From assembly GCF_019649055.1 (NCBI RefSeq), contig NW_026570233.1, positions 620,001 through 684,000 of the forward strand: a DNA stretch of 64,000 bases. The letters are read 5' to 3'. The DNA comes from Paramacrobiotus metropolitanus (lineage: Eukaryota; Tardigrada; Eutardigrada; Parachela; Macrobiotidae). The stretch's first letter is position 1; every line of letters starts with the position of its first letter. The notes beneath the pieces were generated by a model that was given only the letters and a program-made list of their open reading frames with translations, did no database searches and had not been told where the DNA came from. Shown in pieces: positions 3,197 to 29,882 of the stretch. The translations under genes were made by a program, and so were the position numbers.

Positions 3197-3200
3197 CTGG
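3197..3200. repeat. Target-site duplication, left copy (CTGG)
   Basis: CTGG immediately precedes the TG of the left LTR and recurs at 29883-29886 directly after the CA of the right LTR. A 4-bp duplication is within the usual 4-6 bp of LTR-retrotransposon integrases. Confidence 0.8.
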
Positions 3201-3807
3201 TGTCGTATTGCTCGATCCTGCTATTGACAGTCAGTTCGGTACGGTATATCCGGTGGATGCCCTGTACGAAACGGATTGTAGATCTGCTCCCTGCCTTAAT
3301 GCCCAGTCGGTAGAACAACTCTTAAATCATCTGTTACAGTAAATCGGACGGAAATGGATAATTCTGGAACACGTAGAATCAGGAATCCCTAAGCAATTGT
3401 GCTGAATACTCCTAACTTCCGGTCGATACACATGAGGGTCCACGAAGCACGAGCATACCGTGATTACCACGCTCGATCTAATAATCCGTATTTAATTATG
3501 AACGTCGATAACACAGAAAATGCTTTACTCCGCTAACACACAATCATATGCACAACGCAGGAAGTTAAAAGCAAGTAGTCTCAAAGTCTGAAATCCAAGA
3601 CTGATCCGAGACCGCTCGCAATATTAGGAATAACTCAAGCTTATATAGACTAGAAATGCTGTACATCAGAATACATCGCTAAGCCATAACGAGTAACGAA
3701 TCACAGACTAGATGGAACGATAACCACTTCCGGTTGTACTTGCAGGTAAAGGCGGACAGTCAGTGGATGCACGGTGGAATCCCTCGTACGTACTCCTCCA
3801 CACGTCA
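3201..3807 (-). repeat. 3' LTR of the giant element
   Basis: Direct repeat of 29282-29882, starting TGTCGTATTG and ending CACACGTCA. It carries a 7-bp insertion (near 3475) and lacks one G relative to the other LTR. It lies at the 3' end of the minus-strand element. Confidence 0.92.
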
Positions 3808-3818
3808 CCCCCACAAAC
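3808..3818 (-). promoter_or_regulatory. Polypurine tract (plus-strand primer)
   Basis: On the minus strand GTTTGTGGGGG directly abuts the LTR start TGACGTGTGG. This is the expected place and composition for the RNase-H-resistant primer of second-strand synthesis. Confidence 0.75.
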
Positions 3819-4329
3819 GATTTTTTGCTCCCGCAAACATAAACTAATCCATCCAGTCCATCCCGTGTGATTGTGTAGCACTCCATCCCGATCCATCTCT
3901 CGCACTCCGACACAATCCACGCATGTCCATCCGATGCCCAATGACTGTACGCCTGATCCGTAGTGTAATGTTAGAGTAGGATTCTAGCGGCGATGGCATC
4001 CGGAAGTCCATGGGATTGGCGGGGCGGAGATCCAGGATCCAAGGAGGCTGAAATCTACTACTAACTACTACTGTGCCGTCTATTTCTGATGTTGTTTGGT
4101 GATAAGCTGTTAGGCACACGGCTTTATTACGCACGTCTTAGAATGTATAAAATTTAAATTGTGCTGCTGGGTAAAAGATAAATAAAGACTGAACGACAAC
4201 TTCCACTGAAGTTTTAATGAATATACGCACGTCTGTAATTCTCCACACTTTACTATCAATAAAAACTAGAACTTGTACTAGAACTGGTAAAACACAAGAA
4301 TCATCACGAGAAATGAGAATAACAACGAT
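3819..4329 (-). other. 3' untranslated stretch of the giant element
   Basis: It lies between the last accessory ORF and the polypurine tract. A 96-codon minus-strand frame (3844-4134) has no family resemblance and partly reads low-complexity sequence; I do not call it a gene. Confidence 0.4.
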
Positions 4330-4896
4330 TTACTCCTTACGTGGATAGTTATGCAGACTAATGATGGAAACGTATTCAGACTGCGTATCTTCTTTCTGCT
4401 CATCAACATCCATCAGAATCAGTTGCCGAAACGGAATCTCCTCTGACGGCGCACGCACAATCAGCTCCGCCACTGGCTCAACAGGTTCTTGTTCTTCTGG
4501 TGGTGCGGATGGCTCCTTCTCAGTGACAAATAGACCATCCTCCCACTTCTTATAACCATCAACATCAAACGTATCAGGAGCAGACCACGGCTCCTCGGAA
4601 TTCTGCTTAACCAATCTGCCCGACGAATTAATCTTCAACTGCGCAGTGCGAACCCAGCGCTGCTTATCCTGCTCATCCTGGAACACATCAAGGACCACGC
4701 CAACTTGTTCTTCCAAGTGTCCTTCGCGAATCCACTCGTCATTCTGTCGGCGAACTTCGTCCATGTCTTCCATCGCTTCGACATACACCATGATCGCAGC
4801 TAACATCTGCTCACATTCCGCCTTAGCTCTATCATACGCTTCTAATGCTTCTTGTCCAAGACGTCTCGCTCGACCAGTAACAATTTGTCGTGGCAT
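4330..4896 (-). CDS. Accessory ORF11 of the giant element, 188 aa, unknown
   Basis: Starts at the ATG at 4896 (MPRQIVTG); a GTG two codons upstream is unlikely in an animal. The protein is acidic. Residues about 10-60 are predicted helical (EALEAYDRAKAECEQ, then VEAMEDMDEVRR), followed by an E/P-rich segment (EPSAPPEEQEPVEPVAE). No known domain is recognised and no signal peptide or membrane segment is visible. It is the last gene before the 3' LTR, separated from ORF10 by about 370 nt of AT-rich spacer. An intact frame in a young element suggests use, but the function is unknown. Confidence 0.6.
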   Translation of the reverse strand: MPRQIVTGRARRLGQEALEAYDRAKAECEQMLAAIMVYVEAMEDMDEVRRQNDEWIREGHLEEQVGVVLDVFQDEQDKQRWVRTAQLKINSSGRLVKQNSEEPWSAPDTFDVDGYKKWEDGLFVTEKEPSAPPEEQEPVEPVAELIVRAPSEEIPFRQLILMDVDEQKEDTQSEYVSIISLHNYPRKE

Positions 4897-5263
4897 GATC
4901 ACCAGATAATACGGACGGAATCAAAATATGGGGAACTTCAAAAACTGAACGTTTGCTGTGTGCTGAGAACTGTAAATTTGAATTTCGAAACCGTAAGTCT
5001 CAATACACACTGCGTGCGTACAATAATACCAAACTGCCATACGGCGGGTGTGTATACCGGAAATGCCGTAATTCTGATTTAATTTTATTCTAACACCTAA
5101 TTATTCTAATTTTAATTCGAATACTCCGACATAACCAATGTCTTCCAGCTTTCTCAAATAATTCCAATCCGTTCATTAAAATCAAACTAAGGCACCGTAA
5201 ACATTTCAGATTTAAGTGGTATTTGCCAACGCGAAAACACTAACACCTCCAGATTAAACTAAA

Positions 5264-5890
5264 TCAATCAGTAAATGGCTCTACATCAATATAGAATTTT
5301 CGGGGCTTGTTCTCTGAGCTGCTGCTAGACTGAGATCCTCCGGTGTTCGCTTCTTTCAACGGAGATAATTTCTGCTGATGGAATACAGGATAGCCCTGCT
5401 TCACGATCGGTGGCGCAGAATGCGGTTCCACATGCTCGTCGTGCACTTTGCGCTTAAATCCTGTAGCTTCGCCATTACCAAACAACAACGGTGCGATTTT
5501 CGTCCAACGCTGCACGCTGAAGTTCTGGCGGATAAACGCTTTTGAAGCCAGGCGCTCCTTTGGTTGCACAGTATCAACAAGATCCAAAGCTCTATTCATT
5601 AGCTGCGCAGCGCGAATCATCTGGTGGTTCGGTTCTTCCGGTTGGGTATATGTGTATCCCAGTTCGGGCGCTGAGAACACTGACGAGACAGACAGTGTTC
5701 GAGTCGAAGATGCTGGCGACGATGGTGGCAAACTAAACTGTGTGGAAGCCAAGGATCCACGGCGCTGTGCATATCCGACCACAGGAATCTTATTCACGGA
5801 TTCCAACGATATCGCTGCACGTATACGCTTCTCATCCGTCTCAGCCGTATACCGTTGAAAGAACGAAACCGATCGCTTGCGTTCTGCCAT
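5264..5890 (-). CDS. Accessory ORF10 of the giant element, 208 aa, unknown
   Basis: ATG at 5890. The N-terminus is basic (MAERKRSVSFFQR). A serine/threonine-rich low-complexity region spans about 45-75, a helical segment with NHQMIRAAQLMNRALDLVD lies at about 90-110, and a segment SVQRWTKIAPLLFG follows. The C-terminus is again Ser-rich (SSSSSENKPRKF). No domain is recognised. The composition (basic ends, disordered linkers, one short helical core) resembles an RNA- or DNA-associated structural protein, which is only a guess. It is flanked by AT-rich spacers of 370 and 620 nt. Confidence 0.6.
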   Translation of the reverse strand: MAERKRSVSFFQRYTAETDEKRIRAAISLESVNKIPVVGYAQRRGSLASTQFSLPPSSPASSTRTLSVSSVFSAPELGYTYTQPEEPNHQMIRAAQLMNRALDLVDTVQPKERLASKAFIRQNFSVQRWTKIAPLLFGNGEATGFKRKVHDEHVEPHSAPPIVKQGYPVFHQQKLSPLKEANTGGSQSSSSSENKPRKFYIDVEPFTD

Positions 5891-6511
5891 GTCGCAATAT
5901 TAATGTAATGCAGTTAAACAAATATAATTATACCGTGCTCTGCGCACCACGACTACAATCACCAAAAAAGGAAGAGTTCACAAATTTCAGGTAGACGACA
6001 GTACTGTAAGTGAAATTCTTGGTCTTTGCAAGTACTGTGCTCTGCCGTAAGCCGAATCTGTACAATGCGAACGTAACTGGCATTGTGTGGTAGTCGTGCT
6101 ATGCACGGACTTTATTTCCGGTTTACTTCATATTTCCGTAACTGATTTCCTATATTTACAACAAGCGAGAGACCACACGACCTTTTCTGAATTTTATTGA
6201 TTTTTTTGGATTTTACTTTTCATTACTTTAGGGTCCCTGAGGTAGGCTGTACGTGGTTAATCCTTTACCGGGACGACGGTCTGACCCGGATTTTCGTTTA
6301 CACAGATAACACACAACGACAAATTACACATGGCTCTGTGCAACATGAACTGCAACTGGCCCATTTACACTAGTAAGAGGAAACAAAAAGGCAAAAAAAA
6401 AAATAATAAAGATCAAATCACAGTAATGCAACAAGTCAACAAGATCAGATCAACAGTAAAGATTCAAATGCGCATCAGGTCACAACAATAAAAGTACAAG
6501 GACACTGAAGG
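5891..6511. other. Spacer between accessory ORFs 9 and 10
   Basis: AT-rich and without a gene. It may hold the promoter or splice acceptor for ORF10, but I see no defined signal. Confidence 0.4.
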
Positions 6512-7312
6512 TTACTTGCCAGCAGAGGGCGCCAATGAAAATAATCCGGTTTGGCCAGAATTACTGGAAGCTGCGTCCAAACGCTTACTCACTTCCGCGG
6601 CCATCAAACGACGCTTTTCCATCTCTGACTCACGCAAACTCTTCTGAAGAATGTCCTGGTCTGCGACGAAATTCGGCACGAAATCATGGCTTGGCTTGCC
6701 CACACGGTCACGCGATGCGGAGCGATCACGCACAGGAGCACTCGCTGGTACGACAAACGATTCTATGCCAGGTGGCAAACCCGGATACTGCACTGGTTGC
6801 ACAGGCTGCGCACTCACAACTGGAACAACGACTGGCGCAGGCGCTACAACAGAATTCACAGGCGCAACAGAGTTCACGATTGCAACCGAACCTGGTAGAT
6901 GCTGATCAGCATTAGGAGCAACGGGGACAGTCGCGACCACAGGTCCGTGATGCTGGTTTTCAGGCGGTGGAATCGACTTCGCAAGGTCCTGGGCATCGAT
7001 CTCCATAGGGAGGCCGGGATGCGCCACGCGGACAATTGGATCGTTAGGTCCAGCAGGAGCCTCAACAGGCATCTGTTGCCCCAGGGGTCTGCTTCCACGC
7101 TGCCAAGCAGGTGCGTCACGACGGAGATTTTCGCCTCTGTACACTCGCACATGGTTAGGGCGACGCGCGCGAAATCCGCCACGGAAACCGCCACGGTGGC
7201 TCCCTCCACGAAATCCGTATCCATACTGCTGTTGCTGCTGATTTAACTGTGATGTTTGAAAAACTGCGTCCACCAGCTTTTCAAAAGCTCGATTCGGATC
7301 AATGGGCGGCAT
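6512..7312 (-). CDS. Accessory ORF9, RGG-box protein, 266 aa
   Basis: Starts at ATG 7312 (MPPIDPNRAFEKLVD). After a short helix and a Gln run (QLNQQQQQYGYG) comes an RGG box at about 35-55 (FRGGSHRGGFRGGFRARR), typical of RNA-binding, liquid-like proteins. A long Pro/Val/Ala-rich disordered stretch (about 80-190) follows, then a Ser/Arg motif (RDRSASRDR) and a C-terminal helix (SEMEKRRLMAAEVSKRLD). The RGG box is direct evidence for a nucleic-acid-binding tendency; a role as RNA chaperone or packaging factor for the 26.7-kb genomic RNA is inference. The reverse strand is also open over much of this gene because of its base composition; those frames are shadows. Confidence 0.65.
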   Translation of the reverse strand: MPPIDPNRAFEKLVDAVFQTSQLNQQQQQYGYGFRGGSHRGGFRGGFRARRPNHVRVYRGENLRRDAPAWQRGSRPLGQQMPVEAPAGPNDPIVRVAHPGLPMEIDAQDLAKSIPPPENQHHGPVVATVPVAPNADQHLPGSVAIVNSVAPVNSVVAPAPVVVPVVSAQPVQPVQYPGLPPGIESFVVPASAPVRDRSASRDRVGKPSHDFVPNFVADQDILQKSLRESEMEKRRLMAAEVSKRLDAASSNSGQTGLFSLAPSAGK

Positions 7313-7851
7313 TACATCACACACGGCACAAACGTGACCTTAGACACAAAAACAAGAAAAAGTGTACAATTTACACGGCAGAATTATAACGATATGCCGG
7401 TACGGCACAACAACGTAAAAAGTGCAAGGAGAAAATGAAAAATGCACTGAAAATTTTACCGCACATGGCATGCTTATATACCTGCCGAATTCTGAATTTG
7501 CATTACGCCGGTAACTGCGGAAACTTCCCGAACAGTTCGACCAATCAGAGCGCGTCTCTAAAGCTCTTTTAATTCCCAAAATCGGTTACGTCACGAGCGA
7601 CTACATTTTACTTCCGCATGATAAACTATTAGACCAGGCACGCGACTAACAAAAGATCAACGATCGGCAACTACAAGATAAAATTCTACCAAAAATAAAA
7701 TTATTAAACTCTGCGCAGATCCAAAAGACGGCGAGACTGTGAACAACACGGCAGTTCTAAAAATAATAAGAACTCCGCAACTGAATAAAATATGCGCATA
7801 ATGGACAACAACAGCTACCTTGTACGAAAAATAATAACAACTGAGCCCACA
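7313..7851. other. Spacer between accessory ORFs 8 and 9
   Basis: AT-rich with no gene; the sequence just upstream of ORF9 is A-rich. No defined promoter motif is recognised. Confidence 0.4.
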
Positions 7852-8284
7852 TTAAACTTTAATAAAAATTGACGGCACAAAAGGATTCAAAGGAAAAATC
7901 CCCTTGTTGTCAACAATTGAGCTCGGCGCCGGCGTCGGCTGTCCAACTTCCAGTTCAGCAGAGTTAGGTTCTTCCACTGGTGGGGCCATGTTAACGACTG
8001 CTGGCTGCACCAAAACAACTTCATCTGGCACAGGCACTGAAACATGCACAGCTTCGACGGCAACCAATTCCTGTTGCACAGCGGCAGCGATAGGCTGTTG
8101 GATACTTCCATCTGCATTGTCATCATGCTGCTCCGTTTCCAATTTTTCCAGCTCTTCCATGTCAAAATCTGGCAGCTCATCATTGTCTGGCTGCGCCGCA
8201 TCCACGATTGCCACTAAATCCGCGATATCCGCTTCGTCGATCGCGATCTCAGCCGCTGAAGGCTTCGAAATTACTCCAGTGAAT
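7852..8284 (-). CDS. Accessory ORF8, acidic, probably a frameshift extension of ORF7
   Basis: This frame is open from about 8284 to 7852 but has no ATG near its start. It overlaps the last 12 codons of ORF7 in the +1 frame. The product begins VISKPSAAEIAIDEADIADL and continues with an acidic helix (DFDMEELEKLETEQ) and a Val/Pro-rich tail with MAPPVEEP. It is most simply read as a C-terminal extension of ORF7, made by +1 frameshifting at GGC TGA G (8254-8248), or as one gene broken by a single-base indel. No known domain is seen. Confidence 0.5.
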
Positions 8285-9097
8285 TAATGACTCTTCAAAT
8301 TCCATCAATTCATTTTCAGTTTCAGTGCCCGGTTCATGTTCATCATCGTCAATTTCTACTGGCTTGACAACATTGATGGTGGCTGTTTCCGGCTGATACA
8401 AACTCAGTGCAGAAGTCGTTGGCTGATGTTCATTGCCGTCTTCCGCCTCCATTTCATCATACTTGCGTTTCATGCTACCGATTAGATTGAAACGAACTTT
8501 GCGCTGAGCATGGGCACGCTGCAGTCGCTCCCATTCGGCGCGAGTCTCCAAACTCGTGTCTGAAGTATCCGACGAGCCCGTCGTGCCACTGGTATCGGCA
8601 TCCGTAGTCTCTTCCGCGTCGGACTTCTCTACATCGGCTTCGGCGCCCGAATCTTCAGCACTTCCGGTCTCATTCTCTGCTGCAGATTCTACGGCTTTCT
8701 CCCTGTCAGCGGCCGCATCCGCGTGTTTCTTCTCCAAATCTTTCAAAACAACAACAAAATCCGGATTTAAGTAGATATATTGTCGCCGTAATTCATAAGC
8801 AATTTCGATAGGAAGTTTAGTAGTAAAATTCCATAAGTCGTAACGATGCATAAGCTTTTCACCAGCAAACAAGAATTTGGACAACCAGAGGCGATGATAA
8901 TTCTCACCATCTTTGGTCACCGACGAGTGGTACGCCTCCGTGATGGCCATTTCGTCCGTCTGTTTTGCTACTGCCAAGTCCGGGAACTTCTGGACCACGG
9001 TATCGACCGACGAAGGTTCCGTGTCCGTATCTTGTCGGCCAATGCCAACAGCGTTTAAAACAGGATTGCGGCTACGCACAACTGGTCGTTCAGGCAC
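8249..9097 (-). CDS. Accessory ORF7 of the giant element, about 280 aa, unknown
   Basis: The frame is open from about 9168, but the first ATG is at 8950 (MAITEAYHSS). Upstream codons read naturally (PERPVVRSRNPVL), so a spliced leader or a non-AUG start is possible; TTTAAG at about 9170 could be an acceptor. The central part (YDLWNFTTKLPIEIAYELRR) looks folded. It is followed by a helix (KDLEKKHADAAADREKAVE), a long Asp/Glu/Ser/Thr-rich disordered stretch, a basic patch (MKRKYDE) and an acidic end. No domain is recognised. It runs into ORF8 in the +1 frame. About 100 bp upstream (9195-9221) is a copy of the element's own PBS/LTR junction. Confidence 0.6.
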   Translation of the reverse strand: MPERPVVRSRNPVLNAVGIGRQDTDTEPSSVDTVVQKFPDLAVAKQTDEMAITEAYHSSVTKDGENYHRLWLSKFLFAGEKLMHRYDLWNFTTKLPIEIAYELRRQYIYLNPDFVVVLKDLEKKHADAAADREKAVESAAENETGSAEDSGAEADVEKSDAEETTDADTSGTTGSSDTSDTSLETRAEWERLQRAHAQRKVRFNLIGSMKRKYDEMEAEDGNEHQPTTSALSLYQPETATINVVKPVEIDDDEHEPGTETENELMEFEESLIHWSNFEAFSG

Positions 9098-9194
9098 ACC
9101 AGTACGTCGTGCAAACCCAGGACGGATCGGGCGCGGTAGTGGTTTCGCTACAGAACCAATGCGCTATCTTAAACACTTAAATATTCTAGCTTTA

Positions 9195-9221
9195 AAGACA
9201 CCCGAGGTATGCCATGTCGTA
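9195..9221 (-). repeat. Internal copy of the PBS/U5 junction
   Basis: AAGACACCCGAGGTAT and GCCATGTCGTA read in series resemble the true 5' junction GAGACACCCGGTGGGCG and CCATGTCGTA at 29262-29288 with few mismatches. It lies just upstream of ORF7. Confidence 0.5.
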
Positions 9222-9312
9222 AAATAAAATAAAATCGTAAAATAACTAAGATTTTAATGTTGCAAACCAGAGAATATGGAACGCGTAACTACCGGATAAT
9301 TTTAATCTGATC

Positions 9313-9819
9313 TTAAAAGATTCTACCTGCAGCCTCGCCTTCCGAGTCGCTTGTCTCAGAAAAGTGTACTTCTCCCACCAGACGAATACGCGGGTTGATC
9401 TTGGCAGGCGGCGTACTGCTGTTAGAACTGGATGAAGACGGCTGCTTATTACGCCAGTACGTCTGTTCCGGTGTGGCGGTAAAAGATCCGCGCCGTGCAT
9501 TTCCACGAACCACAGCCTGACGCTCTCCAGCGGCCGATGTGGACGGCTGACAGTCAGCTGCATTGGCTGCTACAGTATCCCGTGGACCGAAAGATGTCGG
9601 ATTCGCATGCGATCGGGTAACGCGTCCTGACTGGAGATCTGCGGAAGATCCCGGTCTATATCCAAACGGATGCTCAGTGCGCAAATGAATACCTAGAGCA
9701 CGCTGCTCTCTCGTCGGGACAATAACTGCTGGCGGAGTAGGAGCAGGTGGTCGCTCCGGAAATTCGGGCGAGTTCTCGCGAGACATTGCGAAACGAAGAG
9801 AAATGGGCAGAGATCCCAT
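9313..9819 (-). CDS. Accessory ORF6 of the giant element, about 168 aa, unknown
   Basis: Two candidate ATGs: 9819 (MGSLPISLRF) and 9786 (MSRENSPEFPERPP). The protein is mostly disordered and rich in Pro, Ser, Arg and Thr (PERPPAPTPPAV; SSSSSNSSTPPAK), with an acidic end (SETSDSEGEAAG) preceded by IRLVGEVHFSE. No domain, signal peptide or membrane span is recognised. A conserved structural or regulatory role is only inferred from the intact frame in a young element. Confidence 0.55.
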   Translation of the reverse strand: MGSLPISLRFAMSRENSPEFPERPPAPTPPAVIVPTREQRALGIHLRTEHPFGYRPGSSADLQSGRVTRSHANPTSFGPRDTVAANAADCQPSTSAAGERQAVVRGNARRGSFTATPEQTYWRNKQPSSSSSNSSTPPAKINPRIRLVGEVHFSETSDSEGEAAGRIF

Positions 9820-9837
9820 ATACAATATAAATTCCAA

Positions 9838-10383
9838 AGCTTAAAATACTAAAGTGGCGAACCCGAAAATTTTAACTTGTAAAATTTCGCCGGCCATGTG
9901 CTCGATAGTGCTGCACAAACCGTAAAGTCACGTAAACATCATTCAACAGCGGTTGCCTGACGACAGGCACAATTTCCGGTGCGTAAATACAGTACTAAAT
10001 TCACTTATTCCAAACTACTGGAACTCATCTCCGGTAGTTTTTATGGATAATAAAATTGTTTTTGGTCTAATTTATAATATTTTAGTGTTTTGAAGACGGG
10101 AAACTGTGAATTCACAGTTTCCAAAACGATTAAAAAGCGGGTACCCACATGGGCACATACAAGCTGGGATACACTCAGTTTCTGGCGGTAACTGCCTTTG
10201 ACGGGTGTTAAGCATACGACAGCATGCCGCACAGTAGTTCGCTGAATTACGAATTTTAACAGCTGAGTTCCGCGAGCTCTGCGTGCTGTACTCTCTTCAT
10301 TTCCCGTGTTGTCTATCTGTTATGTTCTGTTTGTTTCCGTTTCTTATTATTACTTATTTATTTATCCTATTTATATCAGCGCA
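9838..10383. other. Divergent spacer between sense ORF6 and the antisense gene
   Basis: About 550 bp separate minus-strand ORF6 from the plus-strand gene that starts near 10384, so this could be a bidirectional promoter. No motif is certain. Confidence 0.4.
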
Positions 10384-12055: not shown

Positions 12056-12057
12056 TC

Positions 12058-15396: not shown

Positions 15397-15503
15397 GCAC
15401 CATTCAGTTAGTATTATTTTAAACCATTAAACCGTACTAGGTCTCCGCTCTTAACTATTAGAGCTGTAGAACGTCTTAATAAGACTAAATGTCTTTACAA
15501 ATA

Positions 15504-20600: not shown

Positions 20601-23600
20601 TAGCTCCTCAACCGCTCTAATTTGCTCTTCGCCCCACTCGAAATCTACCTTTTTCGGTATCAGCCTTTGTAATGGCTCTGCCTTCTCCTGAAAATTCTTA
20701 ATAAACTGGCGGTAGTAACCTACCATTTCCAAAAATCGAAGTATGTCCTTTTTGTCTTTTATTGGGCCGAAATCACGTACAGCCTGTATTTTCTCAGGGT
20801 CTGTACTAATACCGTGCTCATCTACAGTGTGTCCCAAAAATGTAATCGTATTGACAAAAAGCTCCGTTTTTTCTGGGCTAATTGTCCAGCCGCACTCTTG
20901 GAGACGAAGAAATAATTCTTCAAGATCCTTCATGTGATCTTGAAGATTTTTTGAAAATACAATAATGTCATCGATAAAAACTAACACGTTGCGCCATTTC
21001 ATATTGGCTAACGTCAAATCCATCGCACGTTGAAAAGCCGAAGGTGCATCCTTCATCCCAAAAGGTAAGACTTTATACTGGAATGTAAATTCCTCGCCTA
21101 CCATCGTTGTTTTAGGGCGATCTTCTGGCTTAATCTTTATTTGCCAGAACCCAGACTTCAAGTCTATCTTCGAGAACACCTTCGCCTTATCGAGGGCATT
21201 GAGGATATCATCGACACGCGGTAACGGATACGAGCTGCCCAGCAGGCGCTCGTTGAGCTTCCGAAAGTCAACGGTAAGTCGGCGCGACTTATCTTTCTTC
21301 TTTACAATGCATATGGGGCTTCCCCACGCCGAATTTGTCGGCTCGATGATACCGTCCTTAACCATTTCCTGTGTTTTTGCTTGCAGCCATTTCCGGTCCT
21401 CGAAGGACGTCCTGTACGGCGGCGTCCGCACCGGCGCACTGTTTCCGGTGTCTACTGAATGCTCATAAATGGTGCAACATCCTACTGGCCGTGCCTTGGT
21501 AGGTAATACCGCCTTGGCCTTGTAAAATATTTTCTTCAATGCCTGTTTATCTGGGCAAATGTCACCAACTTTAATTTTGGAAAATGTTTCCTCTGTTTCA
21601 GCGTCAACTACGTTATCTAACAGTGGACTTTGTGCCTGCATCGCCCGACATTCACAGCGTTTATCCTGCACCGGAAGTCCATTATTGTCTCGCTCAATAC
21701 GGCAAAACTCGTCATGATAGTTTTCATTATATTCCGGAGTGTTCATTTGGTACACTTCCTCTACGGCAACGATACTACCCAGGTTAGTATCTTTATTCAA
21801 AATTAGCTGTTTGTCCGATACGTTCATAACGCAAAGTCGGCAGTTTCCTTTGTCATTTAATGATACAACGCCGTCAAACAACAAAGCATTCTTATTATTT
21901 TCTGGGATTTTCCCTTCATACAAATATGGCTTCTCTTGCAGGTTTGCCCGGTTGAAGCGCCACAGGCTTTCCGGTGATAATTCAGTTGTTGCCCGAATAA
22001 TTCCCTGACTGTGCGGTTGAATCACTATTGGCTGGGCAGGAAATAATTCCATCTTAAAGAATTCTATTGGACCAACTTCCGGTTGTACATTATAAATTTC
22101 GTCTAAGTCCGAAGGAAACATTTCCTGCATCATTTCCCGCGTATCTTGCATTAATACAGGCTGGTACATGTCGTGCTCAGTCATATTCATTTCCGCTTGT
22201 TGTCGGTGTGCCTCTCGAAATGCTAACTCAATTCCATTCCGCGTATATACGCACGCCGGAATTTCTACAGATTCCCGAGCATCCTGTGATCTCTTGGGCA
22301 AACTGTATATCACATTCTGCTGTGGTTGGCTCTCCATGGCCATCTGTGCCACAGTTTGCTGTTGTAATAGCTGCCGTTTCCACCGGCGGCTCGCACCTGA
22401 TTTTCTTCTTCGTGTGGGAATGAACCCCATGCCTTCCGTTTGAGATTCACTCTCTCCCGTGTATCCATACACTGGTTTATCTGCAAATTGTTCTAGAGGA
22501 GGGATAACCGCATTACTTTGTTGAATTTGGTTCCATATCCGGTGCTGTTCTTCAATACTGACATCCGCCACTGCGGCCTGATTTAATTGAACATCGGGGT
22601 TGCAGAAATCTGGGATCTTTTTCTTCTGTCCGTGATACGCCACTGACGGATTCTGCACTGCGCCCGTGTACACGACCGTATCATTCGTATGTACCCGTGG
22701 CCGTAGCCGCACTCCGGAGACGTCCAAACCGAACGGTAATTTTGATAGCGCTTGGTCTCGCGTAAATTGCTGCTTCTCCGCCTGTCTATCCTCGTAGGAG
22801 ACTGGTACATGTCCCATGTCAATTGGCGACATACTCGGTTCTGGAATAAACCTTCCGTTTTCGAAGTCACCTGCCGGAGCGGGATTTTCCGGTGAGAATG
22901 TAACTTTCTTCTTTTCTGGCTCAGCTAACCGTTCCTTCCGGTGAGTAATTGTAAACTGCTGCCGGAAATTAACTGAATTACGGCATACTTCACACTCTTT
23001 TTCATACTCTTCAATCTGGATAATGATATCCGGCCAGTAAAACATTTTTACGAGATACGGATATAATTTTTCGCGTGGTCCGTATACTTGATTATGTATC
23101 AATATCTCGTGAAATTTAGCGATTAACTTGTCCCGCCACTGGAATGGGACATATATACGTGGGCACTGCCCGTCATGATCAGGGACGCGGCAAATCAAGC
23201 CTTCAAACGTAAGCATCCGGTTTAATTCATTCTTCAAGTAATTCGTATTCGCATTTTGCGGGTTATTTAGAAACTTCAGCCACATCCGGCTATCCATACA
23301 ATTTTGTTGCTCTTTTTTCCAGAACTCAACATCTCTGAATTCCTTTTCCGTCGGGAATCTGTCCTTGTCCTGCGGCCGGGTTAACGGCATCATCCATTTC
23401 ATCAATTCTGGATTTCGCGCCAAGCGGTGCGGGTATTCCCGTTCGTGCACTTCGTCAACGTGCTGGTGATTGAAGTCGATCGGTACAACATTTAGCACCT
23501 TTGTACTAAATACTACACACTCAACTGTTTTGTTTGATTTTTTAGGAAACCCCGCGAACGTATAATGTTCGTCCGGTACCATTCTCAATAATGCTGCCAA

Positions 23601-26600
23601 CGTGGAAAGTGATTTCACCGGAGGTTTATTGTCACCCCCACAAACTTGACTAGGATCTATCGCAAGACATCGTCCACTTTTAATCGCCGTTTCATTTGGA
23701 TTATTCACGCACCGTGACGGTAGCGGAAATTGTTCACTTTCCTTTCTAATTCGTTCCTCCTGGAAGTTTTGCTGTGGCACACCACCTCCCCCACAAACTT
23801 GACTTGGACCGGAGGTTACTTCCATTGTCGGTACGACAGCTTCCGTCTTCTTTTGTTGTTTTGGCTTCACATAGCCCCTCACTGCTTCGTGTACAGCTTC
23901 CTCCAGGAATTCTTTGTCACGTTTGTCTGAGCCCGGCAACATTGGCTTCGGTGCCGGCGGCGGCGTCCGTACTGCGGTGACCACTGGATTCTCTGGTTTT
24001 GGAGGGCGTGGCCATTCTTCTTTTGCCCGTTGCAAATGCATAAGGCATATTTCCGGTTTCGCTTTTGCAAGTATCAGGTGAGCCGATTCATATGGTACAA
24101 ACTGAGCTTCTTTTGCTACACCTATTCTTTCCGTTAACATCAGCGCCGGTATCGACGGCGACTGCTTAACTCCTGGCGGCAGCAATGGGTCAAAATGATG
24201 TGACCGTATGATGTCCGCCATATGATGCATTCGGCGCGGATACCAATCCGGTGCACTGGGATGACGACGTGAGAGTCTCCAAGTCATCGTGCTCATATCC
24301 AGAATAAACGGCTTTGTTGCTAGGAAGTCGAGACCGAGCACAATGTGATCCCGATCAAACATGGTGCTGACCAGTAAGGCGTGTTCAAACGCTGTTCCGA
24401 ACTCGTGTATGGTGACTACCACCGACATCGGCTCAATTACTTGGCGCCCTTGATACGCCGTGTGCACCACTCTTCCCTGAATGTGATCCGGACACCGGTG
24501 AATTTTTAAATTCATGTCCTTTGCCATTTTATAGGACATTACAGAAATGCTCGAGCCGGTGTCGATCATAGTTTTAACTTTTTTGTAATTGACATCAATT
24601 ACAGAGTACCAAGCCTGTGCGTCCAGCGTCGGCATTAAACAGACGTGATCTGCTAACGGGTATTGTTCTATATCCACTACTTCTGCCGAATTACACTGGA
24701 TCGGAGAGATTTCCAGACCCGCAGGTAAATCAAGATCCATCATATTCATTTGTAGGCCGTTTGCCCTGTTCAAAATTTCCGGTGTCGGCTCGTACAACCT
24801 GGGTAATGCTAACGGGTTTCTGCACGAGTTCGCAGTGTGTATTCCGTGGCAACGGTAGCAAATCTCGATGCCCCGTGTGGTTGCCCATTTTTCCCTAACA
24901 ACATTTCTCTCATCAAACGGAATTTCTTCTACCTGATTAGACTGTGGAAAATTTTGCCGGTTATTATTATTATTATACTGCGGACGAAAATTATTATTAT
25001 TATTTTGTGGGCGATAATTATTATTATTATTCCCACCCCGATGATAATTATTATTTCCGCGATAATTATTTCCATAATTATTTGGCCGGAAGTTGCCCTG
25101 ATTATAGCCATTATTATTATTTACAGGTCCGTTTGGCCGGAAATTCTGAAAATTCTGCATTGGCGGAAGCGGCTGCTGTACTTGCTGCGCAGGCGGCGGA
25201 GCCGGAGCCTGCACCTGTGGCTGTATCTGAGGCTGGATTATCGGCGGCGGAGGAAATGCCTGGGCGTACTGCACTGGCTGCATCTCCATCACTTGCGGCT
25301 GCTGATATACCGGATACGGTATGTACTGTACTTGTTGCTGAGGTACATTCGGAACGGAAATAGGCTGCGCCGGCGATGGCGGCGGCGGCGTCTGATTTCC
25401 GGTCTGTACATTCTGGTAATTCCCCGAGCCGTAGTACGGCTTAGAATATCCTCCGCGATTATTATAAAAGTTTCCACGATTCCCCCGTGACGAATAATAA
25501 TTTCCGCGTGACTGGTATTCACCGCGACTGGTACGGTTTTCTGCTTCAACATTACTGCCCGCACTCCGCGGTTCCCGAATTGTCACGCGCTGACGCGGCT
25601 CGTCTTCCTTCCTTTCATCGTCCAAAATTTTCTGTAGTTTCTCGCAGTCCTGAAGCTGTGCTTCGAACTCTGCATACGTTTCCGGTCTGTCTCTGTAAAT
25701 GGTTCTGTACCACTCTTTCCTGTTCTTTTTCAGGCCTTCCAAGAGAATTTCCACTTTTTCTTCCTCCTGTACTTTTAATTCTTTAAACCAGATAAGGAAA
25801 CTGTCCATGTATGTCCGGACGGCTTCATCCCTTTGGCAATGACGATTGTTCATTGCTCTTCGCATTTCCGCTTTGGATGATGCACCGTTAAAGTGCTTAA
25901 TTATGGCCGGTTTGAAAAATTCTGGCCATGTCTTTGTTTTATTGTCTTTATAGAGATCCGCAAACCATACATAGGACGGTCCTTTTAACGCACCGGAAAT
26001 CGCGCGACAAGTCTGCTTGTCGTTCCAGCCGTTTGTGGTACGACACTGATCGACGGATATCACCCACTGCTGGATACGCTCAGGCCGGGTGTCATCAAAA
26101 TTCTGGAGTTTCATCCCGGACTCATTCCTCTCTGTGCCCCTTTCCGTTAACCTCTCCAGAATGTCTGCGATTTTATCGTCGCGCTCTGATTGTCGTACTT
26201 CTCGAGGATCCTGAAGGATAATTCTGTGGGACGATCGAGACGACGTCGATCCCGTCGCACTAGGCGGACCGCTTTGTTCATCATCCTCGCTATCGTCATC
26301 ACGTTCTGTTTCCTCATCCGATTCAATCTTACGGCTATTTTTCTTCTTCTTCTGTTCTGTTTCGATAGTGTGCTTCTGCAACACTTCCTTCCGTAATCCC
26401 GGTTTTGACGTTTTCTTTAACTTAATAAAATTGTCTTTTATTTCAGGCCTTTCTGCTGCCTTATCCTGACGGATTACCGGCTTCAGCGACGGAGCTGCAC
26501 TCGCTTCCCGCTGTGTATGTGAAGAATTTGGATCAGAAGGGGTGAATGTCTGATGATCGTAGCGATCATTTCCGGGCGGAGCAACTGTGTCTCCCGCGCT

Positions 26601-28469
26601 CACCGGTGCTTCCGGTTCAAAGTGAACTTCTCGGACCTGATTGCGGTAGTGTTGCACTTCCTCCTGCAACTCTGCATAAGCTGCCTCGTTATTGTGTAAA
26701 TGCTGCTGCAGATTATATATGGCGACTCTGCATTGATCACCTTCCGCTCGAAGACGATCCGCTTCCGTTTGGCGCAGGTAAGCAACAGCTTGTGCTTCCT
26801 TTACCTCTTTTTCCGCCTGTGAACATTTATTACACGGCTTTTCCAACTGGCGCTCCTTTCTTAACTTTTCGCTTTCCGCCTTTGCATTAGCTAGTTCAAC
26901 TTTATACTGTTCAATTGTGGACAGCAACGTTTCTTCCCTATCTTTAGAGACAGCTGACGTTGCTGCTCTAGTCGATTGTAAATATAATTCATTTTGGGAT
27001 TTTACCATGGCCAGTTCTTCCTGTAACTGTGCTACATAATCGGCATTCGGATTAATTCTTTTTTGTTCTTCTGCCAACTGCCTCCGCAACTTTTCCAATT
27101 CATTATACTCCGAACTACTTCTTTTCTGTAGTTCCACATATGCGTCTCTCTGTTGCTGCAGTTCCCTGCGCAATGTATTTGCCTGTTCTGCTAATCTGTG
27201 GTTCTGTTTCTGCAGGTCGGCGTCGGCCTGCTGATTAACATTTGACTGCCGGGATGCTTTCAACGCATCATACTCCCGCCGGAGCTCCTCTGTGGCATTT
27301 TCCAAATTGCGATTATCGTCTTTTAACTGGTTAAGTTCATCCAGTAACTTTTCATATTCCCGTTTATCTTCCTCCGATTTTTGTCGGTAATTTAGAATAC
27401 TTTCATTTAATGCTTTATTCCGGTAAAGTGCGGTATCCCGCTCTTTACTAACCATTTCACACTTTTTCCGCATTTCATTGAACTCATTTTGAAATTTTAA
27501 TTTTGTGTTCTTCTCCTCCTGCAGGAGCTGATCCATTCGCTTTGATTCACCGATGGAATCAAGCTTTGCTTTTGATTGAGCCACTATTCTCCGTATTCCT
27601 CTGAATAGGAACGGAAGTGACTCACGCGCAATTTTCTCCAAATCCTTTTCTGTTACTGCCGTGGCCAACCTATCATCAACGCTGGCGGCCTGTTCCATGA
27701 ATTCATCATCAGTGAATTCAAAATCTTTATCCGTTATGTACTGCTGCAATCCCAACTGGGATGCATGAAATGTGGAATCACCTGTGCGAACTATCCTCAT
27801 CCTTGGTAAGTCAGACACTTCTTCCAGTTTACTGGTCGGTGATTCATAATTAGATGAATGATCGTCCTCCGTTTCCATCATTGCTTCATTGAAGTCAATA
27901 AGACTTCCGCCCGATATAGGCTCGTTTAGATTCTCAGGCTGAGAGGGCGCCTCTTTTGGTGCCGGCTTCTCTTCCTGATTTACTGCTGTGTTGACAACCT
28001 TTTCCTGTGCGGATCGGGTTTGTCTTTCCGTTTCCTGTGGCGTAGCTTTGCGCTGCGCCACAGCCTCTGTTTGTTTCCTTGCCTCAATTTCTTTCAAAAA
28101 TTCAGGCATCTTTTCCCGTGCGCGGGCAACTGCTGCCTTAAACTGTTCATCCGACACGTATTCTTTTATATACGGTTCCGGAATGCACCGGTCTGTCGTA
28201 AGCCAATTTGGGTAATAATTAGGACGTCGCCTCTGGTATTGTGGATGTAGTGGATCTTCCTGAAATTTGACCCACGACTTCCCGCAGTACGGTACCTCAG
28301 GCACTTCGATACCCAGTTCCCTGTACAGCAATTCCAGAGCGATTTCCTCTGCGTTAAATTTGAATCTCTTTTGTTGAGATGCATCGTACGGTCCTTTCAT
28401 ATACAAAGCAAGAATGTTCGGGTCAATCTTTGTGATCGCCCTCGAACTTTTCTTCCCTGAATCTGCCAT
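17646..28469 (-). CDS. Gag-pol polyprotein of the giant element, 3607 aa
   Basis: A single frame from ATG 28469. Approximate residues: coiled coil 285-625; retrotransposon Gag domain 790-945; Asn/Gly/Gln-rich stretch 980-1180; zinc knuckle CYRCHGIHTANSC at 1201; aspartic protease DTGSS at 1300; reverse transcriptase 2330-2520 with VFIDDI; RNase H 2640-2770 (VVVDAST, TDHQAL); integrase HHCC 2849-2962; integrase core 2985-3095 with Asp in AIDVAP, Asp in TSDRGSNF and Glu in GLVEKRV. Two extra copies of the HHCC module lie at 1715-1828 (between PR and RT) and 3480-3600 (the C-terminus). Typical gag-pol totals are 1200-2000 residues. No frameshift or stop interrupts it, so it is probably active. 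There is no gag/pol frame boundary; how Gag excess is made is not visible. Confidence 0.93.
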   Translation of the reverse strand: MADSGKKSSRAITKIDPNILALYMKGPYDASQQKRFKFNAEEIALELLYRELGIEVPEVPYCGKSWVKFQEDPLHPQYQRRRPNYYPNWLTTDRCIPEPYIKEYVSDEQFKAAVARAREKMPEFLKEIEARKQTEAVAQRKATPQETERQTRSAQEKVVNTAVNQEEKPAPKEAPSQPENLNEPISGGSLIDFNEAMMETEDDHSSNYESPTSKLEEVSDLPRMRIVRTGDSTFHASQLGLQQYITDKDFEFTDDEFMEQAASVDDRLATAVTEKDLEKIARESLPFLFRGIRRIVAQSKAKLDSIGESKRMDQLLQEEKNTKLKFQNEFNEMRKKCEMVSKERDTALYRNKALNESILNYRQKSEEDKREYEKLLDELNQLKDDNRNLENATEELRREYDALKASRQSNVNQQADADLQKQNHRLAEQANTLRRELQQQRDAYVELQKRSSSEYNELEKLRRQLAEEQKRINPNADYVAQLQEELAMVKSQNELYLQSTRAATSAVSKDREETLLSTIEQYKVELANAKAESEKLRKERQLEKPCNKCSQAEKEVKEAQAVAYLRQTEADRLRAEGDQCRVAIYNLQQHLHNNEAAYAELQEEVQHYRNQVREVHFEPEAPVSAGDTVAPPGNDRYDHQTFTPSDPNSSHTQREASAAPSLKPVIRQDKAAERPEIKDNFIKLKKTSKPGLRKEVLQKHTIETEQKKKKNSRKIESDEETERDDDSEDDEQSGPPSATGSTSSRSSHRIILQDPREVRQSERDDKIADILERLTERGTERNESGMKLQNFDDTRPERIQQWVISVDQCRTTNGWNDKQTCRAISGALKGPSYVWFADLYKDNKTKTWPEFFKPAIIKHFNGASSKAEMRRAMNNRHCQRDEAVRTYMDSFLIWFKELKVQEEEKVEILLEGLKKNRKEWYRTIYRDRPETYAEFEAQLQDCEKLQKILDDERKEDEPRQRVTIREPRSAGSNVEAENRTSRGEYQSRGNYYSSRGNRGNFYNNRGGYSKPYYGSGNYQNVQTGNQTPPPPSPAQPISVPNVPQQQVQYIPYPVYQQPQVMEMQPVQYAQAFPPPPIIQPQIQPQVQAPAPPPAQQVQQPLPPMQNFQNFRPNGPVNNNNGYNQGNFRPNNYGNNYRGNNNYHRGGNNNNNYRPQNNNNNFRPQYNNNNNRQNFPQSNQVEEIPFDERNVVREKWATTRGIEICYRCHGIHTANSCRNPLALPRLYEPTPEILNRANGLQMNMMDLDLPAGLEISPIQCNSAEVVDIEQYPLADHVCLMPTLDAQAWYSVIDVNYKKVKTMIDTGSSISVMSYKMAKDMNLKIHRCPDHIQGRVVHTAYQGRQVIEPMSVVVTIHEFGTAFEHALLVSTMFDRDHIVLGLDFLATKPFILDMSTMTWRLSRRHPSAPDWYPRRMHHMADIIRSHHFDPLLPPGVKQSPSIPALMLTERIGVAKEAQFVPYESAHLILAKAKPEICLMHLQRAKEEWPRPPKPENPVVTAVRTPPPAPKPMLPGSDKRDKEFLEEAVHEAVRGYVKPKQQKKTEAVVPTMEVTSGPSQVCGGGGVPQQNFQEERIRKESEQFPLPSRCVNNPNETAIKSGRCLAIDPSQVCGGDNKPPVKSLSTLAALLRMVPDEHYTFAGFPKKSNKTVECVVFSTKVLNVVPIDFNHQHVDEVHEREYPHRLARNPELMKWMMPLTRPQDKDRFPTEKEFRDVEFWKKEQQNCMDSRMWLKFLNNPQNANTNYLKNELNRMLTFEGLICRVPDHDGQCPRIYVPFQWRDKLIAKFHEILIHNQVYGPREKLYPYLVKMFYWPDIIIQIEEYEKECEVCRNSVNFRQQFTITHRKERLAEPEKKKVTFSPENPAPAGDFENGRFIPEPSMSPIDMGHVPVSYEDRQAEKQQFTRDQALSKLPFGLDVSGVRLRPRVHTNDTVVYTGAVQNPSVAYHGQKKKIPDFCNPDVQLNQAAVADVSIEEQHRIWNQIQQSNAVIPPLEQFADKPVYGYTGESESQTEGMGFIPTRRRKSGASRRWKRQLLQQQTVAQMAMESQPQQNVIYSLPKRSQDARESVEIPACVYTRNGIELAFREAHRQQAEMNMTEHDMYQPVLMQDTREMMQEMFPSDLDEIYNVQPEVGPIEFFKMELFPAQPIVIQPHSQGIIRATTELSPESLWRFNRANLQEKPYLYEGKIPENNKNALLFDGVVSLNDKGNCRLCVMNVSDKQLILNKDTNLGSIVAVEEVYQMNTPEYNENYHDEFCRIERDNNGLPVQDKRCECRAMQAQSPLLDNVVDAETEETFSKIKVGDICPDKQALKKIFYKAKAVLPTKARPVGCCTIYEHSVDTGNSAPVRTPPYRTSFEDRKWLQAKTQEMVKDGIIEPTNSAWGSPICIVKKKDKSRRLTVDFRKLNERLLGSSYPLPRVDDILNALDKAKVFSKIDLKSGFWQIKIKPEDRPKTTMVGEEFTFQYKVLPFGMKDAPSAFQRAMDLTLANMKWRNVLVFIDDIIVFSKNLQDHMKDLEELFLRLQECGWTISPEKTELFVNTITFLGHTVDEHGISTDPEKIQAVRDFGPIKDKKDILRFLEMVGYYRQFIKNFQEKAEPLQRLIPKKVDFEWGEEQIRAVEELKDALTSAPVLARYDPEAVSRVVVDASTIAVGAVLMQCPKRQKTEVPANWRPIAYLSRKLTETQKRLYFPTELEAYALICALKKWRHYLSDYLFEVQTDHQALVFLHNMRDAAGRLGRWALYVKQFNTKPVHIPGKENVIADALSRNPGDQPEPISDESDIEFDYRQTHPFVGDAAMIECCYKVLDRDYPDHYMEMTAMSMELKVVNKHDEEAFDANKIQKLVQDEKAAYWAEEQSRDKTICRWKLLLENNKEKMSAHERLHLNKFVVRQGVVYYKFELNKKIYYCMYVPLHRRFEFLRDNHDSPLAAHLGVLATYKRIYKYFYWPKMFEAVRQYCASCPACLAQNTPATAPAGQLQTNPTVPPRMVWAIDVAPALPPTESGNKNIIIAVDYGSKYVVAEAVERNDAATLALFFYRRILTVFGMPAHITSDRGSNFMSELFRELLALSGVAHAPTASGHQQGNGLVEKRVGEIKRALAKYVNEKQNDWDVFLPALTAAFNAKVVERTQHSPFFLMYGQEMRLPMANFLPLDEDYVVPAHVYVQQMQRGLGEALEIVNAEEFRHKLKDKIRYDANTSEVKYNAGDHVLVYVLHRKLGKNPSLSPKWTAGWEIVRQSSPVHYVVKSNKKGNVKLDTVHVSRLKPYCFRDVDVILADEQPLKLLSCFEKESPDVVDEAPAPPPVLPTPDMATSPLDREYAEFLDKQEMAPVVRTKSGRVSKPVVKFAVEHSKRKRDQSTGRSADTNSADRLADVPNVSQHMTVSAETQVPQKRIKVEPVSPVLSVPAPEAKINRVDHDMAPTDKKVIVKPEIFCGIFETEVNVIESKSKNVLEHDMAPPEIPDWAKPKEKFWPVGVVNDDIMERPEFWRFRQSECADIQMWKALVDGVLVDNSRYVQQHLPKIINKNGYICYVDSSPEKVHRILVPHQWRTLLLESVHWRLKHKYFSNVRVLDYILYELRLYWPEVERDVLSYEDDCVHCWSKGNHRK
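23631..23645 (-). promoter_or_regulatory. Internal copy of the polypurine tract, within pol
   Basis: GTCACCCCCACAAAC is identical over 15 nt to the 3' PPT/LTR junction at 3804-3818. A second shorter copy (CCCCCACAAAC) is at 23788-23798; both are followed by CTTGACT(A/T)GGA. In the protein they give two VCGG(D/G) words. They could be central PPTs. Confidence 0.55.
24955..25130. repeat. ATT/AAT trinucleotide-rich stretch in gag
   Basis: Runs of ATT on the plus strand encode poly-Asn blocks in the Gag C-terminal region (NNNNN, NNNN). It is coding low complexity, prone to slippage. Confidence 0.7.
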
Positions 28470-29263
28470 ACTGTAGTTTTACTGGTCGTTAACCTTTGCG
28501 GTTAATCTACCCAAGTAAACTACTTATTTCTTATTTATTCTATTTCCGGCGATTGTGCCAGAAATACAGCAGTGCTTTTGCCGCCTTATATCCGCTCCCG
28601 ATTCTCCTTTTAGGTTTGAAACGGTATGCAGGATAATTCCCTATGCTGTGGGAAACCTTTGTGGTTTCTACCACAGTTTAATTTTTACTTTCCCTACTGT
28701 TGCAGGTCAGTCACCGACTACCTGGTTTGTTTACGTTTTAGCTGCCAGCTACCGCTAGCTGCTGATCTGGCTACCGATTTGGCGCCTTTTGTTCTGCACT
28801 GCTGAAGATTTTATCTAGGCTGGCCAATTACAATGGCTTTAGCCCTGATGCTATCTACAGCTACTGCTTACTACAGGCCAGGCACACTGACACTGCAACT
28901 ACACCTTATTCACCGCGGTCACTGCTTTGCGCAGACAACCCGGAAATTACCCACTTTCTGCTTTCCGCAAAAAGCACTGTAGCCGACCTTTAAGGTTTCG
29001 ACTACTAATTATTACCACCGCAATTTTGGTCCGAATTTAATTCAATTATTAAATTACTGGGCGAGGAAGCTCAACCCGGTGTGGAAGCACACCAATTTAG
29101 CGAGGAAGCTCGCTTAAAAACAAAAACCCTAGGCCAGATCAGGAACGCTGACCTCCTTCGGCGCACCTTTCGGTTCGACGCCTTTCTCGGACCATCAACA
29201 CTTCTCACAAAAACACCATCCAATTTCCATCCGTAATTTACTGTAATATCAGGGAAATTACGA
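28470..29263 (-). other. 5' leader of the giant element
   Basis: About 0.8 kb between the primer-binding site and the gag-pol ATG. Packaging and splice-donor signals would be expected here but none can be named by eye. Confidence 0.6.
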
Positions 29264-29281
29264 GACACCCGGTGGGCGCCA
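29264..29281 (-). promoter_or_regulatory. Primer-binding site
   Basis: Directly inside the 5' LTR the minus strand reads TGGCGCCCACCGGGTGTC. The first eight bases equal the PBS of tRNA-Lys(UUU)-primed elements (TGGCGCCC); the rest diverge, so the primer tRNA is uncertain. Confidence 0.75.
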
Positions 29282-29882
29282 TGTCGTATTGCTCGATCCT
29301 GCTATTGACAGTCAGTTCGGTACGGTATATCCGGTGGATGCCCTGTACGAAACGGATTGTAGATCTGCTCCCTGCCTTAATGCCCAGTCGGTAGAACAAC
29401 TCTTAAATCATCTGTTACAGTAAATCGGACGGAAATGGATAATTCTGGAACACGTAGAATCAGGAATCCCTAAGCAATTGTGCTGAATACTCCTAACTTC
29501 CGGTCGATACACATGAGGGTCCACGAAGCACGAGCATACCGTGATTACCACGCTATAATCCGTATTTAATTATGAACGTCGATAACACAGAAAATGCTTT
29601 ACTCCGCTAACACACAATCATATGCACAACGCAGGGAAGTTAAAAGCAAGTAGTCTCAAAGTCTGAAATCCAAGACTGATCCGAGACCGCTCGCAATATT
29701 AGGAATAACTCAAGCTTATATAGACTAGAAATGCTGTACATCAGAATACATCGCTAAGCCATAACGAGTAACGAATCACAGACTAGATGGAACGATAACC
29801 ACTTCCGGTTGTACTTGCAGGTAAAGGCGGACAGTCAGTGGATGCACGGTGGAATCCCTCGTACGTACTCCTCCACACGTCA
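29282..29882 (-). repeat. 5' LTR of the giant element
   Basis: 601 bp, nearly identical to 3201-3807. It contains the promoter for minus-strand transcription by position; no TATA box is claimed. Confidence 0.92.

Follow-up and report, generated by a model that had tools for sequence, protein, structure and literature searches.

The locus described here raises the question of what fills the extra DNA of a retrotransposon that has far outgrown its kind: sequence carried along by chance, or genes. Elements bounded by long terminal repeats (LTRs) are usually pictured as encoding gag-pol plus no more than a few further open reading frames (ORFs), with a traditional length limit near 10 kb, according to the excerpt available of PMC6431247. 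The window, a 64,000-nt stretch of the tardigrade Paramacrobiotus metropolitanus (contig NW_026570233.1, positions 620,001 to 684,000), holds a Ty3/Gypsy element on its minus strand, which a sequence-only reading had described as a recent insertion with a large accessory-gene module at its 3′ end. Our analysis supports that interpretation, with amendments on gene count, intactness and membership of a large lineage. We take the element to be a recent insertion of a giant Ty3/Gypsy lineage of P. metropolitanus that carries some nine accessory genes under selection (A1, A2/A3, A4, the spliced A5/A6, A7, the overlapping A7x, A8, A9 and AS, a spliced gene in antisense orientation), and on the strength of sequence comparisons we put the probability of this reading at about 0.78.

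Structure of the element and its copies

The element is delimited by the following features, in window coordinates.

3201-29882, minus strand: Ty3/Gypsy LTR retrotransposon (26,682 bp), recognised by its LTRs, target site duplication (TSD), primer-binding site (PBS), polypurine tract (PPT) and gag-pol
3197-3200, no strand: left TSD, CTGG, read in the flanks
29883-29886, no strand: right TSD, CTGG, read in the flanks
29282-29882, minus strand: 5′ LTR, 601 nt, by LTR alignment
3201-3807, minus strand: 3′ LTR, 607 nt, by LTR alignment
29264-29281, minus strand: PBS TGGCGCCCACCGGGTGTC, adjoining the 5′ LTR, whose first 14 nt can pair with the 3′-terminal bases of host tRNA-Lys(CTT) and the added CCA
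17646-28469, minus strand: gag-pol, 3,607 amino acids (aa) in a single frame, by ORF and Pfam, with aspartic protease (aa 1292-1384), reverse transcriptase (RT; aa 2389-2549), RNase H (aa 2637-2748), integrase zinc domain (aa 2911-2969) and integrase core (aa 2987-3080), all by Pfam
3808-4060, minus strand: conserved non-coding stretch before the 3′ LTR, ending in the 3′ PPT, by copy comparison
3808-3818, minus strand: 3′ PPT GTTTGTGGGGG, adjoining the 3′ LTR, from the sequence

The agreement among LTRs, TSD, PBS and PPT asserted by the sequence-only reading is confirmed, as is its view of gag-pol as one intact frame. Read on the plus strand, both LTRs start with TG and end with CA. They show 0 mismatches in 601 ungapped columns, with one 7-bp and one 1-bp gap, which bears out the proposed recent insertion. 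The PBS opens with TGGCGCCCACCGGG, and a tRNA-Lys(CTT) gene with a fitting 3′ end is present at two sites in the genome; judged by eye, pairing extends over 14 bases in the window copy and 12 in most relatives. The pol order of protease, RT, RNase H and integrase is that of Gypsy elements (13 Pfam matches in gag-pol), and LTRs, a tRNA PBS, a PPT and a short target duplication are the structural marks of Ty3/Gypsy elements (Metaviridae). The 120 database matches listed are RT polyproteins with 28-40% identity.

Copies were sought by LTR regions in the 170-Mb assembly, in which the window copy carries the contig label C13; the best 40 of 136 candidates were scored, and the copy number is a lower bound. 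At least eight other full-size copies were found (C9, C248, C11, C72, C38, C94, C80 and C2), with 23-27 kb between their LTRs and LTR pair identities of 96.7-100% (100% in C9 and C80). A 4-bp TSD is readable by eye in the flanks of 8 of the 9 copies, window copy included, the exception being C11. Because the copies have their own TSDs and high LTR identity, we conclude that the whole unit has jumped separately and fairly recently. Gene order is identical in all nine: pol, A1, A2/A3, A4, antisense AS, A5/A6, A7, A8, A9, PPT, LTR. Absence of the 3′ ORFs from other copies had been named beforehand as an outcome that would speak for passenger DNA; all eight other copies carry them in the same order.

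As a side observation, gag-pol contains two further integrase-H2C2-like stretches, at 22920-23522 and 17649-18032 on the minus strand, with E values of 6e-5 and 0.03, both under the Pfam cut-off.

Purifying selection on a fixed set of accessory genes

The module between pol and the 3′ LTR is made up as follows.

16554-17258, minus strand: A1, 234 aa, by tblastn and the ratio of nonsynonymous to synonymous divergence (dN/dS)
14977-16049, minus strand: A2/A3, two ORFs here (181 and 139 aa), a single ORF of 311-324 aa in five of nine copies
13218-13925, minus strand: A4, 235 aa, recombinant between lineages
11184-11671, plus strand: AS exon 2, by copies and dN/dS
11027-11183, plus strand: predicted AS intron, 157 nt, GT...AG, by frame restoration
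10384-11026, plus strand: AS exon 1, by copies, with a winged-helix-like C-terminus and a stop at 10783-10785 in the window copy
9327-9819, minus strand: A5/A6 exon 1 (A5), by splice-site comparison
9148-9326, minus strand: predicted sense intron of A5/A6, 179 nt, by splice-site comparison
7852-9147, minus strand: A5/A6 exon 2 (A6), its frame broken in the window copy, by copy comparison
6512-7312, minus strand: A7, 266 aa, with an RGG-rich N-terminal part, by tblastn and dN/dS
6874-7224, minus strand: A7x, 116 aa, in the +1 frame of A7, by substitution pattern
5264-5890, minus strand: A8, 208 aa, by tblastn and dN/dS
4330-4896, minus strand: A9, 188 aa, by tblastn and dN/dS

About ten sense ORFs had been counted here. 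Ten main non-overlapping ones of 102-266 aa do lie in 4330-17258, along with shorter overlapping ones. The count needs two corrections: two conserved antisense ORFs are also present (10306-11671, plus strand), and several of the ORFs counted separately belong together as exons or fragments of a gene, so that the module comprises about eight sense genes and one antisense gene predicted to be spliced. With tblastn, the 12 window ORFs match the eight other copies at 28-97% amino acid identity, except for A1 in C2 and A9 in C9 and C38.

Selection was measured by the Nei-Gojobori method for 12 ORFs in eight copy pairs, giving 93 values of dN/dS, with in-frame stop codons set aside. Eleven values from distant pairs were dS-saturated; among the other 82, 71 did not exceed 0.3 and 81 did not exceed 0.5. 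The pair C13-C9 gave 0.08-0.21 in 11/11 ORFs (A9 is deleted in C9), and C248-C11 gave 0.09-0.47 in 12/12. The values near 1 that had been proposed as a mark of functionless DNA are thus not seen. Alignments of copy pairs agree, in that divergence is lower in most of the coding parts than in most of the sequence between genes; the contrast is clearest in C72-C80 (0.02-0.13 in coding parts versus 0.09-0.35 between genes) and weaker in C13-C9.

These results bear directly on the notion that the extra DNA is a functionless passenger, of host or other origin, caught between the LTRs and carried along. Such a passenger might be expected from accessory ORFs that have no Pfam family above the cut-off, from the two genes broken in the window copy, and from accessory proteins that outpace RT in divergence (C13-C80: RT 0.20, A8 0.52). 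It is refuted for these ORFs by dN/dS of 0.5 or less in 81 of 82 comparisons, and the low divergence of coding parts in C72-C80, the fixed gene order and strand, and the absence of internal stops from 59 of the 62 full-length A7 matches listed in the genome all point the same way. We regard it as barely credible. Accessory and RT distances are correlated (Spearman 0.42-0.86 for five proteins). A4 is an exception: in C248 and C11 it lies near that of the C72 group, yet their RT is nearer C13, which implies that modules recombine between element lineages.

The association extends across the genome. We surveyed 83 RT loci among the matches listed (second segments of a locus dropped), together with 99 of 100 AS matches and 72 of 92 A7 matches (fragments dropped). 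AS lies within 25 kb downstream of 61 of the 83 RT loci, on the opposite strand in 61/61 and at a median of 12.6 kb (quartiles 12.36-12.71). A7 lies within the same distance downstream of 59, on the same strand in 59/59 and at a median of 15.7 kb. Both are found downstream in the expected orientation at 57 loci, whereas upstream matches occur at three RT loci for AS and four for A7. A separate observation concerns LTR matches just 7-8 kb apart, at G000:C29:575538-583627 and as pairs on C284, C65, C138 and C35; the C29 locus keeps A7, has no RT among the RT matches listed and looks like a deletion derivative.

Predicted splicing, overlap and internal polypurine tracts

Two ORFs, AS1 and AS2, run antisense to pol. 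They are separated by a predicted GT...AG intron of 63-157 nt, with lengths of mixed remainder modulo 3, and its removal would join AS1 to AS2 in frame in 9/9 copies. The junction peptide is alike across copies, GRTL-[NT]; C80 has a second, less likely solution. As to what AS may do, its AS1 profile gave one match in the PDB at E up to 1, histone H1 (1uss, E 0.55). Aligned with four linker-histone domains it reached an hhalign probability of 40%, against 0.4% and 0.1% for the controls A9 and A4, and the piece of the window copy past the stop has a weakly predicted fold (confidence score pLDDT 57) with helix-helix-hairpin order. This faint resemblance to the linker-histone winged helix is a lead, and only a lead, to DNA binding. 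Distant AS relatives with 25-28% identity, long open frames and one TGA inside each match were also noted (G000: C46, C347, C292, C76:130909, C86:422805, C101, C192, C91 and C17:556490); they possibly represent a third lineage or a further intron.

The sense gene A5/A6 appears to be spliced as well. A5 ends at a CAG/GTA site in 8/9 copies, coding resumes past an AG that precedes the ATG of A6, and the predicted joining restores a stop-free frame in 7/9 copies, with more than one possible acceptor in three of the seven. Of the exceptions, C38 keeps the sites and has a stop in exon 2, and C94 has lost the donor.

A large 3′ gene set with splicing recalls complex retroviruses, and the element could be an infectious endogenous retrovirus, with a diverged envelope encoded by a 3′ gene or by the gag-pol linker. 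A usual threshold for a membrane segment is a mean 19-residue hydropathy of 1.6. Of the 33 accessory ORFs measured (the gag-pol linker left out), four exceed it, namely A6 of C9, A7 of C13 and C72, and A7x of C11, but 26 stay below 1.4, A6 and A7 of the other measured copies range from 0.81 to 1.55, and copies of a gene do not clearly have a membrane segment in common. Nor is there a Pfam envelope match in gag-pol or the accessory proteins. The planarian giant Burro does have an env-like region, according to the part of PMC6431247 available. On balance we hold an envelope-bearing retrovirus to be very improbable.

Selection on A7 is overlaid by a second coding constraint. The A7x ORF, 113-126 aa long, is present in 9/9 copies and also in the more distant C52 and C57. 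At fourfold sites of invariant A7 residues, the third-base difference is 0.15 within A7x (24 columns) versus 0.49 outside it (40 columns; P = 4e-6). Changes at positions 1 and 3 of A7 codons number 26 and 8 inside the overlap and 21 and 84 outside (odds ratio 13, P = 4e-9), summed over the close and not fully independent pairs C13-C9, C248-C11, C72-C38 and C80-C94; the remaining four of the eight pairs show the same lean. In 3/5 pairs A7 is clearly less diverged than its flanking DNA, which disfavours simple gene conversion at A7, although C72-C2 and C11-C248 do not show this. An antisense ORF over A7 shares, by phase, its third positions with A7x. It occurs in 8/9 copies versus 9/9 for A7x, and since A7x is found in C52 and C57 too we prefer A7x as the probable overlapping gene.

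C52 and C57 also inform on the age of the module. C52 has clear A1, AS1, A6, A7 and A7x and a weak A5 (E 0.08); C57 has clear A1, AS1, A7 and A7x, A4 and A9 in part and a weak A6 (E 0.06). Since A1, AS and A7/A7x are found in both, these genes at least are older than the window's own family. One could also ask whether the 3′ module was captured as a block from another genetic element, for example a DNA virus, with its promoters, antisense gene and introns coming from that source, and was then selected. Coding on both strands, the head-to-head arrangement of AS and A5, introns and gene overlap would all suit such an origin, as would the failure to find a likeness to retroelement genes. Set against this, no homologue was found outside the P. 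metropolitanus genome (a large protein database was searched with A7 only), and the deeper copies share A1, AS1, A7 and A7x, not recognisably the whole block, so that stepwise gain fits equally well. Capture as a block seems possible though doubtful.

Two further features, inside pol, may concern replication.

23635-23645, minus strand: internal PPT GTTTGTGGGGG, followed by TGACA, one base off the 3′ PPT/LTR joint, by motif search
23788-23798, minus strand: second internal PPT GTTTGTGGGGG, by motif search

Two recurrences of the 3′ PPT in pol compare with an expectation of 0.05 across the whole window. At least two such sites were present in pol at 12/12 loci checked, with one mismatch allowed to cover a T/C difference. 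The variable base is T in 17 of 18 internal sites of the nine family copies (one C, in C72) and C in C57, C1 and C92 (3, 3 and 2 sites), C57 having in addition one near-match of another kind. The 3′ PPT follows suit, with C in both C52 and C57 and T in 9/9 family copies. Across the genome there are 165 occurrences of TCAAGTTYGTGGGGG and 0 of the reversed pattern; among the matches listed, most are in pairs or triples.

The internal tracts sit in coding sequence, and in the copies printed they encode SQVCGG or SQVRGG (RQV twice); they might then be merely coding repeats of this peptide. Against this, the encoded residue flips between Cys and Arg with the PPT base, and in the other clade it switches together with the base of the 3′ PPT. 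Moreover, the three sites of C1 are not all in one frame, and given QVCG the exact codons have a chance of about 0.006 per site. We find a purely peptide-level explanation unlikely and read the internal PPTs as probable extra plus-strand start sites. In lentiviruses, the central PPT is a comparable internal plus-strand start.

The LTR-end/PBS joint ACGACATGGC also recurs, five times on the minus strand of the element (9220, 12856, 18112, 18223 and 29287) with 0.08 expected; the site in the A5/A6 intron is kept in 8/9 copies and that between A4 and AS in 6/9. As extra primer sites the internal occurrences were rejected for the window copy, since at 9220 and 12856 the bases past TGGC mismatch tRNA-Lys. 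Secondary structure in the conserved stretch before the 3′ PPT was likewise rejected: folding of 3808-4060 was no better than that of shuffled sequences (z 0.46), with changes on both sides in 3 of 69 pairs. An Rfam search gave no match.

Organisation and comparison with known elements

Taken together, the features would give the element the organisation of a small complex virus. About nine selected genes would occupy both strands, one of them overlapping another and two of them spliced, one in sense and one in antisense orientation, the latter keeping its intron through RNA transmission. A divergent promoter would lie inside the element, and plus strands would start from three PPTs to copy a 25-kb genome. 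We give this fuller picture even odds. Genomic RNA from the 5′ LTR would encode gag-pol, and AS and probably A5-A9 would be expressed as separate mRNAs from the 0.56-kb head-to-head interval between AS and A5. The AS intron would be kept in each cycle through reverse transcription, because its orientation opposes splicing from genomic RNA. If A5/A6 is spliced, unspliced genomic RNA must still be exported, and at least one accessory protein is then probably an RNA export or regulatory factor, comparable to CERV in Cer1; A7, RGG-rich and basic, is a candidate for binding RNA, and AS for regulation through DNA binding. The two internal PPTs would start extra plus strands, aiding copying of the 25-kb template, and the faster divergence of accessory proteins than RT is what might be expected of proteins that face the host.

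Several observations weigh against our reading of a selected accessory module, beginning with the lack of Pfam matches already given and, in the folding result above, the lack of structure before the 3′ PPT. The assertion that the accessory frames were intact at transposition needs qualifying, as two genes are broken in the window copy, AS1 by the stop at 10783-10785 and A6 by a split frame; stops also occur in A1 of C72 and C94, A3 of C94 and AS1 of C80, and the tblastn gaps for A1 in C2 and A9 in C9 and C38 add to these. The highest dN/dS, 0.51 for A7 in C13-C11, is attributed to low dS. A ten-sequence A7 profile found nothing at E ≤ 1e-3 among 7,996 candidates scored of 5.77 billion proteins, P. 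metropolitanus proteins included. The length of the A7x frame tested against codon shuffling gave P of 0.04-0.32, below 0.05 in 1/11 copies. A Foldseek structure search with the AS piece had no match at E ≤ 0.001. Both structure predictions made were poor (pLDDT 57 and 42). Within 25 kb downstream, AS is missing from 22 of the 83 RT loci and A7 from 24. Finally, A2/A3, A4, AS2, A8 and A9 were unmatched in C52, and A2/A3, A5, AS2 and A8 in C57, though unmatched ORFs of similar size are present there; some of the module has either arisen more recently or diverged beyond recognition in these copies.

Other features of the window lie beyond the element. A second LTR element at 44228-59901 (plus strand) contains ORFs for Gypsy gag and pol, and its LTRs match at about 99% over 444 bp; two long ORFs towards its 3′ end (812 and 474 aa) have no Pfam match. 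A divergent Hsp70-like gene with several paralogues in P. metropolitanus lies at 33718-35073, and the ORFs at 36616-38076 and 60211-61818 are alike in DNA, one having a weak Hsp70 match. The gene at 33718-35073 also identifies the host, matching an annotated P. metropolitanus protein at 100% identity across 92% of its length, whereas COX1 and two telomere patterns, sought for the same purpose, yielded nothing.

In open-licence literature, covered as titles and the openings of abstracts, we found no account of this element and none pairing Paramacrobiotus with a retrotransposon. With about nine selected genes and duplicated PPTs, a lineage present in dozens of copies would reveal how large a retroelement can become, and would offer a non-retroviral case of regulation like that of complex retroviruses. 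The accessory set consists of fast-evolving tardigrade proteins to which the searches made gave no name, and why large elements keep such genes becomes testable by comparing copies inside one genome.

Among known elements, compared here by the descriptions available, the planarian giant Gypsy element Burro (GYPSM1) is similar in its Gypsy-type pol, an internal region of up to about 25 kb, a very long polyprotein and extra coding capacity (the available part of PMC6431247). Burro carries MATH, BIR, BCL2-like and env-like domains in one polyprotein plus some accessory ORFs, whereas the 3′ genes of the window element, about nine in number, are separate, belong to no recognised family and include an antisense one, and no env was recognised. 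None of Burro's four domain types is among the 13 Pfam matches of gag-pol, although Burro's env-like region itself needed more sensitive means (same source). Ogre of plants is likewise a large Gypsy element (16-25 kb), but its size is owed mostly to LTRs of 1.9-6.5 kb and it has 1-2 extra ORFs (same source), while the LTRs here measure 0.6 kb. The animal LTR element Cer1 of C. elegans expresses CERV from a spliced mRNA, and CERV is needed for export of Cer1 genomic RNA, as described in the part available of PMC10309623. The plant Gypsy elements Retand, Grande and RIRE2 have a long region between pol and the 3′ LTR with a conserved antisense gene, whose protein in Retand possibly binds DNA (PMC11963269 and PMC7264820, in the parts available). 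That Retand-type feature, an antisense ORF between pol and the 3′ LTR, is present in the window element, the antisense proteins being likened by description; a TRP28 domain marks the antisense protein of Retand-type elements, and AS gave no Pfam match above the cut-off. The region here measures 13.8 kb, holds about eight additional sense genes and belongs to an animal host. As far as these descriptions go, the tardigrade element stands apart from Burro, Ogre, Cer1 and the Retand group in how many separate accessory genes under selection it carries, in the splicing predicted for its antisense gene, in its gene overlap and in internal PPTs that covary with the 3′ one.

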